Shown here: piece by piece, positions 20,951 through 45,351 of the stretch | Numbering within the stretch: the stretch's first letter is position 1 | Layout: each line of letters begins with the position of its first letter | NCBI RefSeq assembly: GCF_021608225.1 | Contig: NZ_JAKIJS010000003.1 | Location: forward strand, 1-64,000 | Reading direction: 5' to 3' | DNA: 64,000 nucleotides | Source: Pseudalkalibacillus berkeleyi | Lineage (GTDB): Bacteria; Bacillota; Bacilli; Bacillales; Fictibacillaceae | Program-made: the position numbers and the translations under genes | Notes under the pieces: model-generated | Told to the model about the DNA's origin: nothing | The model's database searches: none | What the model saw: only the letters and a program-made list of their open reading frames with translations

Positions 20951-21754
20951 CTAAAAGTTTACAATTCTAAGTGGCATACTTCTTTTTGATACCATTTCTT
21001 CACCAGAATTTAAGTTTAATAGAGAATAACGATCGGATCTTCCAGTCTTCACATCAAGCTCTTGTATTAAGATGTCCTCACCATTCTCAAACAAAAACCT
21101 CGGACAAATGGATACTCCAAATTTCTTCTCTATGTCGTATTCCTCATCCACCATTAAGATTTGTTTCGGGCTGTTTTCTGATAAAGGATAGGATGAGATA
21201 AACAGTCGTTCATTCAACACGAGTAGATCAGAAGGGGCAAAGTGCGTCCCGAGCTCTACAAAATCAACCGATCGACCATTAAGTATATAAAGTCTAGCTG
21301 TATCAAGATCCACTACATACGCTGAGACACAAACCGAACCATTATATTCAATTACACCCCAAATGAATCCATCGATTTCCCATTCGTTCAACAGTTTTAA
21401 GTTGTCTTTGGAAAATTGATACACATAACCAACTTCACCATTTCCTTCACATGCAATGACAACACTGTTCTCAAATTCATAAATATTTGGGGTACCCTTC
21501 ACTTTCTTATTCATGATTGTTCCTGTTTGATCATTCGTTGCTACAAGGTCAAATTTCCCTTTTCTGTCAATCGGATAATAATACCAGTTATTGTTACTTC
21601 GATCTACTAGAAGCTTTCTTTTGCTGACCTGGGTATTTCTTATCATTTTATGATCTAACGTTTTCGCCGTTATTCCTATTCTTTTTCCATGAGAAGCATA
21701 AAACGGGTCTTTCGTTTCGTGGTGGCTGAAAAATAAATTGTTCATTTTTCCCAT
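20951..21754 (-). CDS. Hypothetical protein, possible beta-propeller-like fold
   Basis: A 267-residue cytosolic protein I do not recognise. It is rich in short beta strands with repeated aromatic-hydrophobic blocks (NNNWYYYPIDRKGKFDLVAT, YVYQFSKDNLKLLNEWEIDG, VSAYVVDLDTARLYIL), which suggests a WD-like or YncE-like propeller. There is no signal peptide or catalytic motif. GGGAGG lies eight bases before the ATG. It is divergent from the TPR regulator at 21994 and shares its upstream region. Confidence 0.7.
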   Translation of the reverse strand: MGKMNNLFFSHHETKDPFYASHGKRIGITAKTLDHKMIRNTQVSKRKLLVDRSNNNWYYYPIDRKGKFDLVATNDQTGTIMNKKVKGTPNIYEFENSVVIACEGNGEVGYVYQFSKDNLKLLNEWEIDGFIWGVIEYNGSVCVSAYVVDLDTARLYILNGRSVDFVELGTHFAPSDLLVLNERLFISSYPLSENSPKQILMVDEEYDIEKKFGVSICPRFLFENGEDILIQELDVKTGRSDRYSLLNLNSGEEMVSKRSMPLRIVNF

Positions 21755-21821: not shown

Positions 21822-21920
21822 TTCCCAATATAGTGAAAAACTAGTTTGAAAGGCTAACTGAGATTTCCTTTTTGTGTTATATTAATTTTATCAAAGGAAC
21901 ATACGGTCCTGTATTGGGAA
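21822..21920. promoter_or_regulatory. Paired inverted repeat in the regulator promoter region
   Basis: TTCCCAATA (21822-21830) is repeated in exact inverse as TATTGGGAA (21912-21920), 81 bp apart, enclosing the likely promoter region of the TPR regulator gene. This arrangement could bind a dimer and loop DNA. No known operator is recognised. Confidence 0.45.
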
Positions 21921-21993: not shown

Positions 21994-23250
21994 TTGATAG
22001 GACAGAGAATAAGATATTATAGAAAGACAAAAAGCCTCACTCAAGAAGAGCTAGCAAAAGGAATATGCTCCGTCTCCTACCTAAGTAAAATAGAAAACGG
22101 CGACGCAAAATCCAGTGATGACGTCATCCAGCTCTTGTGTGAGAGACTAGGGATCTCTCCGGAAAGTCAGGAATTAGATGTTAATTTTATTGGATTGTTA
22201 AATGAATGGAACTACTATCTAACTTTAAGAAAAAGTAAAGAAGCTAAAGAAATATACTTAAAAATAGAAGATCAAATACCTTTTATTGAGGATCCCAATA
22301 TCATATTAAGATATAAATTGTTCCTTACTCGACAGTATCTCACTGAAAAAAAAGCAGAAGATGCATATAATCTATTAAAAGATTTAAAGAAATATAAAGA
22401 TATTGATTTTGATTCCTCATTAAAGTTTTATCATTATTTTATTTTGGGACTGTACAACTATATCACTTACGATTACAGGGAATCTATTGATTACTTCTAT
22501 AAAGCTGAGCCATACTTAGTTCAAACCCCTTTAACTGAAGTTGAAATTGCAACATTTTATTATAATATTGCGCTCACTCTTACTCACTTAACCCATAATA
22601 CTTCAGTTATTAGCTATGCTAACAAAGCTCTCAATATTTTCGATAAAGATTATCACTTCACCAGAAGTTCTGATTGCCAAATTTTACTAGGTATTGTTAA
22701 CCGGCGTATTAAAAACTATTCCCAGTCAGAGTATCACTTCTCCCAAGCACTTAAATTTGCAGAGTCCTTTAATGATAGTAAAGGGTTATCTGTTATATAC
22801 CATAATTTGGGATATGTACATTCAAGTAAGGGTGATGGCAAAAAGGCTATAGAATTCTATCATAAATCAATAAAAATTAAAGAAAAAATAAAAGATCAAA
22901 GTATACACATAACATACTATCTTATTGCCCAAGAGTATTTTAATTTAGGAGAACCCACCTCCTCTTCTATGTGGCTTGAAAAAACGTTCAATAATCTAGA
23001 AAAGAACCCTGACAAAGAATATTTAATCCATTATAAAGTATTAAAATATCGACTAGATAATGATCACGGAAAGGAATATGAGCAATTTATAAAAAAAGAA
23101 GCTATTCCTTTTTTTCAAGAACAAAATATATTAGAACGTGTTTGTGAATATGCCACATTGCTGGCAGAATACTATTTTAATAACTCACAATATAAAAGCT
23201 CGAGTGAGTATTATAAATTAGCATTAGAAGCAAGCCAACAATATTTTTAA
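21994..23250 (+). CDS. RNPP-type regulator: XRE helix-turn-helix plus TPR domain
   Basis: A 418-residue cytosolic regulator. Residues 1-65 form an XRE helix-turn-helix (RIRYYRKTKSLTQEELAKGI, VSYLSKIENG) and the rest is a TPR array with A-F-Y-rich helices typical of peptide-pheromone receptors (PlcR, NprR, AimR-like). A TTG at 21994 behind AGGGAGGGGGG is taken as the start; the upstream ATG at 21946 lacks a ribosome binding site. The gene is visibly more AT-rich than its neighbours, suggesting transfer. It is followed after 14 bp by a repeat-containing secreted precursor on the same strand, the receptor-then-pheromone order of RNPP systems. Binding of that peptide is inferred. Confidence 0.88.
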   Translation: MIGQRIRYYRKTKSLTQEELAKGICSVSYLSKIENGDAKSSDDVIQLLCERLGISPESQELDVNFIGLLNEWNYYLTLRKSKEAKEIYLKIEDQIPFIEDPNIILRYKLFLTRQYLTEKKAEDAYNLLKDLKKYKDIDFDSSLKFYHYFILGLYNYITYDYRESIDYFYKAEPYLVQTPLTEVEIATFYYNIALTLTHLTHNTSVISYANKALNIFDKDYHFTRSSDCQILLGIVNRRIKNYSQSEYHFSQALKFAESFNDSKGLSVIYHNLGYVHSSKGDGKKAIEFYHKSIKIKEKIKDQSIHITYYLIAQEYFNLGEPTSSSMWLEKTFNNLEKNPDKEYLIHYKVLKYRLDNDHGKEYEQFIKKEAIPFFQEQNILERVCEYATLLAEYYFNNSQYKSSSEYYKLALEASQQYF

Positions 23251-23264
23251 AGGAGAGTACTTAA

Positions 23265-23753
23265 ATGAAAAAATTAATTACCTTATCTGTAGGGCTAGTA
23301 GTATTATTTTCTGTTCATAGTTTAGTTCAAGGCCACAATAGCACTATCGATCAAACACCTGAGCCTACCAGCAACCCAAGTACAGTTGCTATTGATCAAA
23401 CGCCTGAGCCTACTAGTAATCCAAGTGCAGTCGCTATTGATCAAACGCCTGATCCTACTAGCAACCCTAGTGCAGTCGCTATTGATCAAACGCCTGAGCC
23501 TACTAGTAATCCAAGTGCAGTCGCTATTGATCAAACGCCTGATCCTACTAGCAATCCAAGTGCAGTTGCTATTGATCAAACGCCTGAGCCTACTAGCAAT
23601 CCAAGTGCAGTTGCTATTGATCAAACGCCTGAGCCTACTAGCAACCCTAGTGCAGTTGCTATTGATCAAACGCCTGAACCTACTATCAATCCAAGTGCAG
23701 TTGCTATTGATCAAACGCCTGAACCAGGCAGTAGTCCTTTTACAAAAATTTAA
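23265..23753 (+). CDS. Secreted nine-repeat peptide precursor, candidate multi-copy pheromone
   Basis: A 162-residue protein: a signal peptide (basic MKK, hydrophobic core LITLSVGLVVLFSVHSLV) followed from residue 28 by nine tandem 15-residue units of consensus IDQTPEPTSNPSAVA. Position 6 alternates Glu and Asp, the eighth unit has Ile for Ser, and the ninth ends divergently in GSSPFTKI. Each unit junction is AVA-I, an AxA signal-peptidase-like site, so processing could free up to nine near-identical Pro/acid-rich peptides reminiscent of NprX or PapR. AAAGGAG precedes the ATG, 14 bp after the TPR regulator. No other domain is present. Function is inferred from layout. Confidence 0.85.
   Translation: MKKLITLSVGLVVLFSVHSLVQGHNSTIDQTPEPTSNPSTVAIDQTPEPTSNPSAVAIDQTPDPTSNPSAVAIDQTPEPTSNPSAVAIDQTPDPTSNPSAVAIDQTPEPTSNPSAVAIDQTPEPTSNPSAVAIDQTPEPTINPSAVAIDQTPEPGSSPFTKI
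23346..23750 (+). repeat. 45-bp coding tandem repeat array (nine units)
   Basis: Nine direct repeats of 45 bp encode the 15-residue units of the precursor. Units 2 and 4, and 3 and 5, are most alike, pointing to duplication of a 90-bp block. Most differences are synonymous third-position changes in the Ser-Asn-Pro codons, so the amino acid sequence appears conserved by selection. Confidence 0.95.
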
Positions 23754-23777: not shown

Positions 23778-24305
23778 CTATAGGTTTCCTCTATTTTTTG
23801 TCTTAAAACACTCCTCACTATGATCTGGCTGGATATATCCTGCTGCCATAAGGAAACTTTCGGCTGTTGTGAGTCCGACGTGTTTGAATGTTTTCTTTAT
23901 TTCTTTTTGTTTTTCTAATGTTTCTTTAGGTAACGAATCAAAATAGTTTTTAAGACTTCCATGATCTTTAATCAACTCTAGTGCTATGTTTGCATTATGA
24001 ATCGTCGCTTCTATTTTCCGTCTATGTCGAACAATTCCTTTGTTTTGCAACAATTCCTCAATCTTCTCTTCTTTATATTCACTCACCTTATGAATCTCAA
24101 ATCCATCAAATGCTGTACGGAAGTTTTCCCTTTTATGAAGAATCGTTTTCCAGCTTAGTCCTGCTTGGAAGATTTCGAGTGTCAATGCCTCAAACAGATC
24201 GTTATCATCATCCAATGGCTGCCCCCATTCGTGATCATGATAATCCATAAGCATTGGATCATCCTCACACCAGTTACATCTTCTTCGTTTTTTCGTCGTT
24301 TCCAT
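23778..24305 (-). CDS. tag: DNA-3-methyladenine glycosylase I
   Basis: A 175-residue base-excision repair enzyme that removes 3-methyladenine. The zinc-snap ligands are visible: Cys in RCNWC and His in HDHEWG near the N terminus, and HSEEC near the C terminus. The ATG at 24305 follows GAGGGGG by seven bases. It is convergent with the repeat-peptide gene and only 24 bp from it. Confidence 0.93.
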   Translation of the reverse strand: METTKKRRRCNWCEDDPMLMDYHDHEWGQPLDDDNDLFEALTLEIFQAGLSWKTILHKRENFRTAFDGFEIHKVSEYKEEKIEELLQNKGIVRHRRKIEATIHNANIALELIKDHGSLKNYFDSLPKETLEKQKEIKKTFKHVGLTTAESFLMAAGYIQPDHSEECFKTKNRGNL

Positions 24306-24401
24306 ATACAATCCCCCTCTACCATCAATCAGTTATATAATGGATAATAAGCACGTTTAACTATTACTTTACTTGTTTTAATCAATTAATTCCATCATTC
24401 A

Positions 24402-26438: not shown

Positions 26439-28136
26439 TTACATTTTCTCTGGAGCCTTTATACCAAGCAATCTAAGTCCTTCTTTTAAGACGACCGTTA
26501 CCGATTTAACGAGATGAAGTCTGGCTTGTTGTTCCTCATCAGTGCCAGATAATATGCGGACTTTTCCGTAATACTGATTGAAGTAACGTGCTAATACAAT
26601 TAAATAACGAGAAAGAATAGAGGGCTCATATTCATGAAATGCGCGCTCTACTATGCTCGGAAAATGTTCTAGCGTTAAAATAAGATCCCATAAGTACGCT
26701 TCATCTATATTATATGGTGGATTTGTTTCTTTCATTTCTCCCCAAGAGCCTTTCGTTAATAACGTACAAGCTCTTGCATAGGTATATTGAATATAAGGAC
26801 CTGTTTCCCCTTCAAATCGAAGCATTTGTTCAATGTCAAACTCCACGTCATTTAGACGAGATTGTTTCAAATCATTGAAAATGACTGCACCTACACCGAT
26901 TATTTCTGCTACTTGCTCTTTTGCTTTAAGCGTCGGGTTCTTCTCTTCAATATTCCGTTTTGCTTGTTCAATCGTCTGCTTTAATACTTCTTCAAGTAGT
27001 ACCGTCTTTCCTTTACGCGTAGACATCTTCTTCCCATCTTGTAGGATCATCCCGAAAGGAATGTGTTTCATGTCCTCTGCCCAATCGTAACCTAGCTTGA
27101 GCAATACTTTCTTCACTTGTTGGAAATGAAGGGACTGTTCATGACCGACCACATATAATGATTCTGCAAAATGATATGTGCTCTTTCGATACTTAGCTGC
27201 TGCCAAATCCCGCGTTGCATATAAGGAAGCGCCATCTTTCTTTTGAATTAATGCAGGCGGCATATCGAATTCCTCTAAATCAACGACCATCGCCCCATCA
27301 GATTCAACTAACAGCTTTTTCTCGTTGAGCTCATCTACAATGGCTTGCATTTTATCATTGTAAAAAGATTCTCCAGGATACGCGTCAAAAGATACATCCA
27401 AGAGTTCATAAATTTTTTCAAATTCCTTTAAGGATTCCTCTCTGAACCATTTCCATAAAGCTGTTGCGTTGGAATCTCCGCCTTCAAGCTTTTTGAACCA
27501 AGCTCTACCTTCGTCATCTAGGCTAGGGTCTTCCTTCGCTTTTTCATGAAATAAGACATATAGTGCATTCAATTCTTTAATCGGGCTCTTTCTTACGGCG
27601 TGTTCATTTCCCCATTTTTCATAAGCGGTCATTAGTTTGCCAAATTGTGTGCCCCAGTCACCTAGGTGATTGATGCGTATTGGTTTATAGCCATTCTTTT
27701 CTGCTAGGTTCGCGACCGCATTTCCGATCACTGTAGATCGTAAATGTCCCATTGAAAACGGTTTGGCGATATTCGGTGAAGATAAATCGATTGGTATCTG
27801 GTGACCGCTCGCTTTCACACTTCCGTATTGCTCGCCATCAACCAATATTTCGCTGATGACTTGCTCTGTCAGTTTTCTCTTCGGTAAAAACAAATTCAAA
27901 TAAGGTCCCGTAGCCTCTACTCGGTCAAATACGTCCGAACTTGAAAGCTTTCCCTCTAGCTCTTTTGCAATTTGTACAGGTGATTGTTTCAAATGCTTTG
28001 CCAGTATGAAGCAAGGAAAAGCGAGATCACCCATTTCTCGATTTGGAGGGACCTCTAAGGATTTTTTCAAATCTTCTTCTGACAAAGAATCTATAATGAT
28101 ACTTAATTGATGCGCTGTATAATCTTTAATCGACAT
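26439..28136 (-). CDS. argS: Arginyl-tRNA synthetase
   Basis: A 565-residue class I synthetase of normal length. The HIGH-type signature appears as SPNIAKPFSMGHLRSTVIGN (about 119-138), the KMSKS-like element as KKMSTRKGK (about 371-379), and the C-terminal DALR anticodon-binding domain starts near 450 (YIQYTYARACTLL). AAGGAG precedes the ATG. The leader carries a T-box, so expression should rise when uncharged tRNA-Arg accumulates. Confidence 0.98.
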   Translation of the reverse strand: MSIKDYTAHQLSIIIDSLSEEDLKKSLEVPPNREMGDLAFPCFILAKHLKQSPVQIAKELEGKLSSSDVFDRVEATGPYLNLFLPKRKLTEQVISEILVDGEQYGSVKASGHQIPIDLSSPNIAKPFSMGHLRSTVIGNAVANLAEKNGYKPIRINHLGDWGTQFGKLMTAYEKWGNEHAVRKSPIKELNALYVLFHEKAKEDPSLDDEGRAWFKKLEGGDSNATALWKWFREESLKEFEKIYELLDVSFDAYPGESFYNDKMQAIVDELNEKKLLVESDGAMVVDLEEFDMPPALIQKKDGASLYATRDLAAAKYRKSTYHFAESLYVVGHEQSLHFQQVKKVLLKLGYDWAEDMKHIPFGMILQDGKKMSTRKGKTVLLEEVLKQTIEQAKRNIEEKNPTLKAKEQVAEIIGVGAVIFNDLKQSRLNDVEFDIEQMLRFEGETGPYIQYTYARACTLLTKGSWGEMKETNPPYNIDEAYLWDLILTLEHFPSIVERAFHEYEPSILSRYLIVLARYFNQYYGKVRILSGTDEEQQARLHLVKSVTVVLKEGLRLLGIKAPEKM

Positions 28137-28159: not shown

Positions 28160-28410
28160 ATAAAAAAACGCCTCTCAATAAATTGAGAGACGAGTTATGC
28201 CCGCGGTACCACTCTAATTATCCAAAATTAAATTTGGATCCACTTAACCCATTAACGCTGGGAACGGCTTAATCTACTTGTTTTCAAATAAGCATCTCAG
28301 AGGTGCGGTTCAATTTCAGCTCATACTGGACTTCCACCAACTCCAGCTCGCTAGCATGTGCCCTGAAATTTACTCTCCTCATCATCAAATGTAATTGGTA
28401 ATTTTTAATC
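28160..28410 (-). promoter_or_regulatory. T-box riboswitch (arginine) upstream of argS
   Basis: Read on the minus strand: a Stem I with AGTA and AGCGAG elements, the T-box antiterminator sequence AGAGTGGTACCGCGGGC (about 28199-28215), and a terminator hairpin CTCTCAATTTATTGAGAG followed by GCGTTTTTTT (28166-28190). The 3' side of the specifier region reads GAACCGCACCTC; the codon CGC is the likely specifier, matching tRNA-Arg(ACG). An ORF crossing this region at 28284-28556 is not considered coding. Confidence 0.93.
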
Positions 28411-40008: not shown

Positions 40009-40027
40009 AAAGTTAGATTTGCGGTTT

Positions 40028-40140
40028 GATCGATAAACTTGGCTTTTTGCACGATAAATTTCGAGTTTTGATCGATAAATTTACAGTTTTGCACGATAAA
40101 ATCCGAGTTTTGATCGATAAATCTCCAGTTTTGCACGATA
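40028..40140. repeat. 21-bp periodic array alternating GATCGATAAA and GCACGATAAA
   Basis: Six units begin at 40028, 40049, 40070, 40091, 40112 and 40133, exactly 21 bp apart. The first two bases after G alternate AT and CA, so the true period is 42 bp. The array lies between the convergent DUF3905-like and SDR genes, beyond the terminator. Confidence 0.92.
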
Positions 40141-45240: not shown

Positions 45241-45330
45241 TTATCGTGCATTTATTTGATTTATTGTGCATATATCCAGATTATCGTGCATATATCCAGA
45301 TTATCGTGCATATATCGAAATTATCGTGCA
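45241..45330. repeat. 20-bp periodic array of TTATCGTGCA (five copies)
   Basis: TTATCGTGCA (second copy TTATTGTGCA) starts at 45241, 45261, 45281, 45301 and 45321, an exact 20-bp period. It is the reverse complement of the TGCACGATAA core in the array at 40028-40140, and again lies between convergent genes. Confidence 0.93.
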
Positions 45331-45351
45331 TTTAGCATTTTCAAACACAAA

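Follow-up and report, generated by a model that had tools for sequence, protein, structure and literature searches.

The window analyzed here, a stretch of 64,000 nucleotides from Pseudalkalibacillus berkeleyi (contig NZ_JAKIJS010000003.1, assembly GCF_021608225.1), very probably carries a quorum-sensing pair of the NprR-NprX type, in which a precursor containing multiple copies of a heptapeptide would signal to a cytoplasmic receptor that would act through a bipartite operator to activate protease and Rap-Phr genes. This explanation is built on features read from the sequence, namely the gene pair itself, the copy number and the heptapeptide footprint of the precursor, and the recurrence, spacing, phasing, promoter geometry, and gene neighbors of the operator. 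The coordinates are listed in Table 1. Publications are cited by PMC number from excerpts of their text, and statements about them hold for those excerpts.

Table 1. Positions of the receptor-precursor locus, its putative control elements, and the paired operators upstream of fdhD. Positions are those of the window unless a locus is named.
Feature	Position	Strand	Remark
Divergently transcribed 267-aa protein	20951..21754	-	Possible direct target of the operator
Putative extended -10 TGTTATATT of the nprR-precursor operon	21875..21883	+	Upstream of the operator, by eye; missed by the consensus scan
Putative extended -10 TGATAAAAT of the divergent gene	21885..21893	-	Exactly 20 nt from the operator arm
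Bipartite operator (candidate) TTGGGAAAA-N43-TTTTCCCAA	21914..21974	.	nprR leader / divergent intergenic region
NprR-type receptor/regulator (HTH + TPR)	21994..23250	+	418 aa, TTG start
Secreted-looking pheromone precursor	23265..23753	+	162 aa; ORF and translation; signal-peptide-like N terminus, then nine repeats
Nine-unit repeat array	23346..23750	+	TRF period 45; core selection profile
DNA-3-methyladenine glycosylase (tag), convergent	23778..24311	-	Pfam Adenine_glyco; marks the 3' border of the locus
Paired fdhD operators	L076 1240, 1501; L110 1601, 1865; L123 1601, 1869		

An NprR-type receptor gene precedes a nine-copy precursor gene

The original prediction described an HTH-TPR regulator followed, after 14 bp, by a secreted-looking protein made of nine repeats. 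The ORFs, the Pfam matches, and TRF confirmed this arrangement, including the 14 bp between the stop codon of the regulator and the precursor ORF. The regulator, with an HTH_3 domain at residues 6-57 and TPR_12 matches, has the N-terminal HTH, the TPR domain, and a length within the 250-500 aa expected of NprR among the RRNPP (RRNPPA) proteins. Its best PDB match by sequence was NprR (4gpk, E 3.2e-24); apo NprR (5dbk) and Rap-type proteins came next. An AlphaFold2 model of the regulator (mean pLDDT 78.9, with a poorly modelled HTH region) likewise retrieved NprR with Foldseek, 5dbk being the best match (E 3e-11) and sharing the top of the list with 4gpk. Because NprR leads both the PDB sequence matches and the Foldseek matches, the regulator was filed as NprR-type, its closest characterized relative by sequence and predicted fold being NprR. 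The label had initially been "PlcR/NprR-type", of which only the second half was retained: NprR and Rap proteins lead, no chain named PlcR occurs among the 58 PDB matches, and PlcR was thus rejected as the closest relative.

Residues of NprR involved in the tetramer or in contacts with Spo0F include Y223, F225, D107, Y118, and E188 (PMC4970707). With the numbering anchored on Y223 and F225, which are presumably the pair mutated in 5dbk, the residues Y223, F225, and D107 align to Y220, F222, and D100 of the regulator and are invariant in six orthologues. Among the four Spo0F contacts named, Y118 is not kept in the window receptor, where L111 takes its place, and E188 is ambiguous in the alignment.

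Both genes were previously thought to be AT-rich compared with their neighbors. This holds for the regulator gene (GC 0.305, a value as low being found in 0 of 210 window tiles of the same length) but not for the precursor gene, whose GC of 0.429 is above the window mean of 0.394. No Pfam match was obtained for the divergent 267-aa protein. A sigma-70 consensus scan of the locus was uninformative, with 9 promoter-like sites versus 7.7 in shuffles, and neither of the two terminator-like sites at the locus lies 3' of the precursor. Elsewhere in the window, a T-box leader (28183-28394, minus strand) stands just before the ORF 26439-28136, and the segment 46437-46688 matches the Rfam family BsrG with 95.4 bits (gathering 55).

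A profile search gave a match in all 34 family genomes, with 33 orthologues above 420 bits; in the remaining genome (G010), a contig end cuts the locus, of which the operator and the open beginning of the gene are present. Five named relatives (L008-L012, whose contigs are those of L021-L025 and were counted once) have the same pair, with tag downstream in all five and an ECF sigma factor downstream of the pair in all four whose stretch reaches it.

A bipartite sequence recurs upstream of nprR and at other sites

The intergenic DNA before nprR is 80-94% identical between the window and the five relatives, versus 66-68% for the nprR coding DNA. Within this DNA, 29 of 30 leaders have exact copies of TTGGGAAAA and TTTTCCCAA with 43 bp between them, the other one (L049) having one changed base. 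When two mismatches were tolerated, each of the 34 family genomes contained 2-11 sites, compared with 0-2 for the backwards pattern. In eight genomes of the genus, eight-base arms separated by gaps of 30-60 yielded 61 sites and none in the backwards control, and 58 of the 61 share one gap length out of the 31 permitted. Finally, among 397 genomes of the order, exact sites were present in all 16 family members (4-8 each) and in 23 of the 381 others, mostly once, although sites across genomes are partly orthologous and such counts are therefore not independent events. A 16-bp dyad adjoining the operator, AGGAACATATGGTCCT, was also considered as the operator and dropped, being kept only in part of genus g1.

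The association with the receptor was analyzed in 46 out-of-family genomes. An NprR homologue was detected in 22 of the 23 genomes with a site, and in 15 of the 23 picked as having no exact site, a set defined by eight-base arms and exact N45. Three genomes of the latter set (G128, G053, and G069), searched again since the scan of homologue loci had already shown their sites, do have sites, in which the eight-base arms are separated by gaps of 43-44. In that scan, for which gene starts were taken from tblastn, both arms were found upstream of 12 of 30 out-of-family nprR homologues and were absent in 18. With gaps of 20-79 allowed, 15 of the 16 arm matches have a gap of 42 or 43, and the sixteenth reads the same place off register. 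By comparison, arm matches occurred in 20 of 9000 base-shuffled upstream regions, which keep base composition only, and in 6 of 448 stretches taken from elsewhere in these loci. The homologues preceded by the operator, at similar spacing, belong to families f4, f15, f20, f21, and f37. By genomic association, we infer that TTGGGAAAA-N43-TTTTCCCAA is tied to the regulator as a candidate operator.

Further sites were noted beside other receptor-like genes. One more site lies upstream of a second homologue in G232 (C23). In the source genome, a second HTH-TPR paralogue (L002, C1:537649-538866) has the variant operator TTGAGAAA-N44-TTTCTCAA upstream and no obvious precursor, and inspection by eye of another second HTH-TPR paralogue, L003, revealed neither a comparable inverted repeat nor a signal-like ORF downstream.

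Copies of the candidate operator adjoin protease and rap genes

Genes were sought within 600 bp of each site, and their domains were verified on a single representative of each class, except for S8 with three. On this basis, 20 of the 53 genus sites outside nprR leaders face proteases, of which 15 are S8 (subtilisin-type), 4 M12 (reprolysin-like), and 1 M4 (thermolysin-like). The other genus sites adjoin fdhD (10 sites, in 7 genomes), DUF2188 genes (8, one in each of 8 genomes), rap (7), a C92 peptidase (1), or none of the neighbors sought (7). For the 45 sites of other families, the best-scoring neighbor is an S8 gene in 19 cases, nprR in 8, an M4 gene in 4, rap in 3, a homologue of the window's divergent gene in 2, and none in 9. 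One site in family f20 is common to nprR and an S8 gene. The source genome contains 14 S8 matches, two of them beside a site.

Several of the rap neighbors are followed by Phr-like precursors that are themselves multi-copy, with seven units in L102, four in L134, and three in L080, L125, and L137, and those of L112, L118, L207, and L208 look single. The L080 case (G000, C1:2676861-2678500) is a Rap phosphatase of the source genome itself, with the operator upstream and a three-copy precursor of the RDAIVPDSEK type. Two other neighbors deserve mention in their own right. In genome G030, an operator-linked subtilisin gene is split into separate reading frames (L117, 1218-1529 and 963-1205), and in three genomes two operators, spaced by about 260 bp, precede fdhD, an odd neighbor for a protease regulon.

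These neighbors allow us to predict, from sequence, that the regulator controls extracellular degradative enzymes. As the enzymes that NprR activates in Bacillus thuringiensis are proteases, lipases, and chitinases (PMC3325205), the theme of the predicted regulon is that of NprR. An alternative is that the receptor-pheromone pair is real and that the operator belongs to another stationary-phase regulator, which also controls nprR. In its favor, the association between operator and receptor is a genomic one only, 15 of the 23 genomes picked as having no exact N45 site also possess a homologue, and 18 of 30 homologue loci lack the operator. Against it, the operator precedes nprR homologues in five families, nearly all genomes with a site (22 of 23) possess an NprR homologue, a variant of the operator stands upstream of the HTH-TPR paralogue L002, and the neighboring genes fit the degradative-enzyme theme reported for NprR (PMC3325205). 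We therefore regard control by another regulator as unlikely, and favor the NprR-type receptor as the protein acting at the operator.

The repeats point to a heptapeptide signal

The precursor starts with MKK and a hydrophobic stretch, which by eye resembles a signal peptide, and the protein is thus secreted-looking, with putative export by Sec; no Pfam family was found for it. Its tandem array (TRF score 632, period 45) is the top one of six TRF rows for the window, in which two short arrays with units of 20-42 bp were also noted at 40025-40140 and 45241-45331. A search of the source genome returned a single match to the precursor and no second copy elsewhere. The array comprises nine 15-residue units with the consensus IDQTPEPTSNPSAVA and E/D, S/I, and A/T variants. 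Each unit starts with the heptapeptide core IDQTPEP or IDQTPDP, which is followed by an 8-residue spacer in eight cases and by a different tail in the ninth, the last unit ending in GSSPFTKI. The junctions between units, all initially described as AVA-I, are so in seven of eight cases, the first being TVA-I.

As anticipated, codons vary more than amino acids among the repeats, with a pS of 0.202 and a pN of 0.024 for the core of the window array; nine near-identical copies of a candidate mature peptide thus appear to be under purifying selection. The copies within each precursor were compared by Nei-Gojobori counts in 30 arrays with three or more cores. Pooled over these arrays, pS and pN were 0.669 and 0.071 for the core without its two anchor residues, and 0.423 and 0.268 for the spacer, and in 26 of the 26 arrays whose spacers could be compared, pN was lower in the core than in the spacer. 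By position, pN was 0.244 at -1, then 0.044, 0, 0.004, 0.038, 0, 0.118, and 0.168 along the core (residues 2 and 5 served as anchors for finding the core and are uninformative here), and 0.264, 0.378, and 0.464 right after it. Because amino-acid change is rare in the heptapeptide and rises outside of it, the signal is probably about 7 residues long (IDQTPEP here), and not 15, and starts directly after the xxA junction; the remainder of the unit is likely a spacer differing between species. The description of the 15-residue repeats as a pheromone-like peptide thus stands for the conserved array, and has to be narrowed to the 7-mer for the likely signal. This footprint fits the mature heptapeptide SKPDIVG of NprX (PMC5641580).

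Alternatively, the active signal could be the 15-residue unit in full, or a set of overlapping forms. The window copies are well conserved at all 15 positions, and mature NprX has been presented as presumably an octapeptide (PMC4970707), but the footprint over the 30 arrays drops after the seventh residue and mature NprX is elsewhere given as a heptapeptide (PMC5641580), which makes a longer signal quite improbable. A signal of seven residues is retained in what follows.

Homologous regulator-precursor pairs were then compared for their repeat number, as the original prediction had proposed. The family precursors read came from the window and 29 of the 33 other genomes; these 29 were gathered beside regulators and so say nothing on whether the repeat protein occurs alone. 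Between 3 and 9 lineage-specific heptapeptide cores of the form xDxxPxx were counted in 27 of the 30, by a D/E..P rule with a start filter that gave three copies for L032 and L033, whose sequences show four. There are nine cores in the window, L036, and L040, eight in L041, and one or no clear core in L031, L038, and L049. Nearly all family cores, such as IDQTPEP, YDENPPM, YDENPPA, IDELPPM, HDDTPDL, FDHTPGP, SDNSPGI, and TENNPGI, fit x-D/E-x-x-P-x-x. Outside the family, where the precursors read leave out L147, L160, L164, and L167, the cores include VDKHPDP (L149, eight copies including one variant), HESHPDP (L150, six), and IDQHPDP (L156, five), as well as single copies, e.g., KDQHPDP; EAEHPDP or DAEHPDP is present in five, two, and two copies in L152-L154, whose EAEHPDPTS arrays are outside the core count. 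The comparison with relatives therefore lends good support, at the sequence level, to the reading as an RNPP-type regulator with a multi-copy pheromone precursor.

The candidate operator is helically phased and adjoins putative extended -10 elements

In 58 genus operators, the spacer is A/T-rich with a period of 11.25 bp (power 29.6 versus at most 1.6 in 1000 permutations), and the A/T profile of 48 operators taken from other families looked similar by eye. About five helical turns separate the two half-sites. The promoter geometry was analyzed in the window and in 65 of 98 sites, whose gene and orientation were assigned by hand. Beyond the gene-side arm, TGnTAnnnT begins exactly at +20 in 36 of these 66 sequences and at 19-21 in 40, and occurs only twice elsewhere in the 50 nt; the extended -10 is absent at 19-21 in 26 of the 66, including the S8_b, M12, and fdhD groups. 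The position at +20 implies that the arm adjoins the -35 position, as for an activator at an extended -10 promoter.

In the window, this geometry is that of TGATAAAAT, on the strand of the divergent gene, and is the same as at operator neighbors elsewhere. Homologues of the divergent gene also adjoin their own operator copies in L214 and L216. The minus-strand element at +20 and these homologues make the divergent gene a probable target of the operator.

It was also considered that the conserved inverted repeat might be an RNA leader structure, i.e., an attenuator or a ribosome-site switch, rather than a DNA operator. In the window, the repeat lies just before the ribosome site and its arms can pair. 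However, the fold energy of the leader is no better than that of shuffles (z -0.85), no Rfam family reaches its gathering score near the leader (three weak matches fall below it), and elsewhere the repeat is found at a fixed distance upstream of a -10-like element with a helically A/T-phased spacer. An RNA leader thus appears very unlikely, and a DNA operator is the reading that we keep.

Comparison with known systems

The pair resembles NprR-NprX of the Bacillus cereus group in its HTH and TPR receptor, closest by sequence and fold, in the adjoining precursor gene with a short peptide signal, and in the extracellular proteases among the targets (PMC3325205, PMC5641580), which are predicted here from operator neighbors. 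It differs in its precursor, NprX being 43 aa long (PMC5641580) and the window precursor 162 aa with nine copies, and in its peptide motif, xDxxPxx as against SKPDIVG.

With tandem copies of a putative mature pheromone in one precursor, the window also resembles the published multi-copy RRNPPA propeptides. Known partners had been said to encode normally one or few copies, but in the literature many copies are no rarity for this subfamily: each of the 17 atypically large NprR propeptides studied contained repeats, and copy numbers in the AimR, NprR, PlcR, and Rap classes reached up to six (PMC9765709), with up to eight copies mentioned for Phr (PMC11343458). The nine copies found in the window, L036, and L040 exceed these numbers, and because multi-copy NprR and Phr precursors are already in print, they are a small extension of known propeptides. 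The proposed likeness to fungal alpha-factor precursors is not first drawn here, since NprX duplications and the comparison with fungal pheromones have already been published (PMC5199041). The nine copies could be a passive outcome of tandem expansion. At 162 aa, the precursor would be skipped by RRNPP_detector with its default limits of 10-100 aa for propeptides (PMC10075063).

Repeats rich in P and T are known in surface proteins. Nevertheless, a secreted structural, surface, or antimicrobial role of the repeat protein has hardly any probability left, as related precursors measure 39-161 aa and some are single-copy, the heptapeptide is kept while spacers differ between species, and the precursor, which has no Pfam family, directly follows the receptor gene in the loci read; we retain its reading as a pheromone precursor.

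By analogy, the nearest known arrangement to the window operator is that of AimR in SPbeta-type phages, with 6-bp inverted boxes and a 25-bp spacer (PMC6458997). Both involve an RRNPP-family regulator and two inverted boxes around an unusually long A/T-rich spacer. The window operator, with 9-bp arms and a 43-bp spacer, is about two helical turns longer from center to center; it is therefore not an AimR-type operator, although it may work alike. It also differs in having several chromosomal sites and in its predicted activation by the peptide-bound form, as opposed to release by peptide. A similarity to Rap-Phr systems lies in the rap genes with Phr-like precursors, several of them multi-copy, that adjoin operator copies; Rap proteins are devoid of an HTH, and the window pair is not a Rap. 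The bipartite operator of the nprR leader was not found in the literature searched: among the matches listed, which were mainly open-access, no description of it was found in the NprR literature, in a search that an arm inside a longer string would escape.

Proposed mechanism

From these data, we infer the export, processing, and import of the peptide, its binding to the receptor, the binding of DNA, the sign of regulation, and the protease feedback on the precursor. The precursor would be exported by Sec and cut by signal peptidase, after which extracellular proteases, described as maturing duplicated Phr precursors (PMC11343458), would cut the xxA junctions and release many copies of IDQTPEP from one precursor. 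The heptapeptide would be re-imported and bind the cytoplasmic receptor in its TPR pocket. With the peptide bound, the receptor is predicted to bind the two inverted half-sites (TTGGGAAAA), which are separated by about five helical turns of DNA with phased A/T tracts, one bound half-site being placed right beside the -35 position of extended -10 promoters. The complex would thereby activate genes for secreted proteases as well as Rap-Phr operons and a few others. Towards the divergent gene of the window, the operator may serve as an activator site and, as it lies between the putative nprR promoter and the start codon, as a possible brake on the expression of the nprR-precursor operon itself. 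More tentatively, and with somewhat more doubt than conviction, the complex might bend the 61-bp operator, the proteases of the regulon might cut the precursor and so make its release self-amplifying, and the multi-copy Rap-Phr pairs might form a second tier of signaling.

For receptors of the NprR type beyond the Bacillus cereus group, the analysis provides a candidate 7-mer signal, a DNA site, and a regulon, all testable. It has been suggested that the NprR tetramer binds a pair of DNA sites simultaneously (PMC4970707), and the two-arm operator, with its near-fixed spacing and helical phasing, is a concrete candidate for this double site. The precursors of the family, in which a conserved core and drifting spacers are repeated up to nine times, constitute a data set on why bacteria multiply a pheromone within a single precursor and may also inform on the joint change of receptor and peptide specificities.
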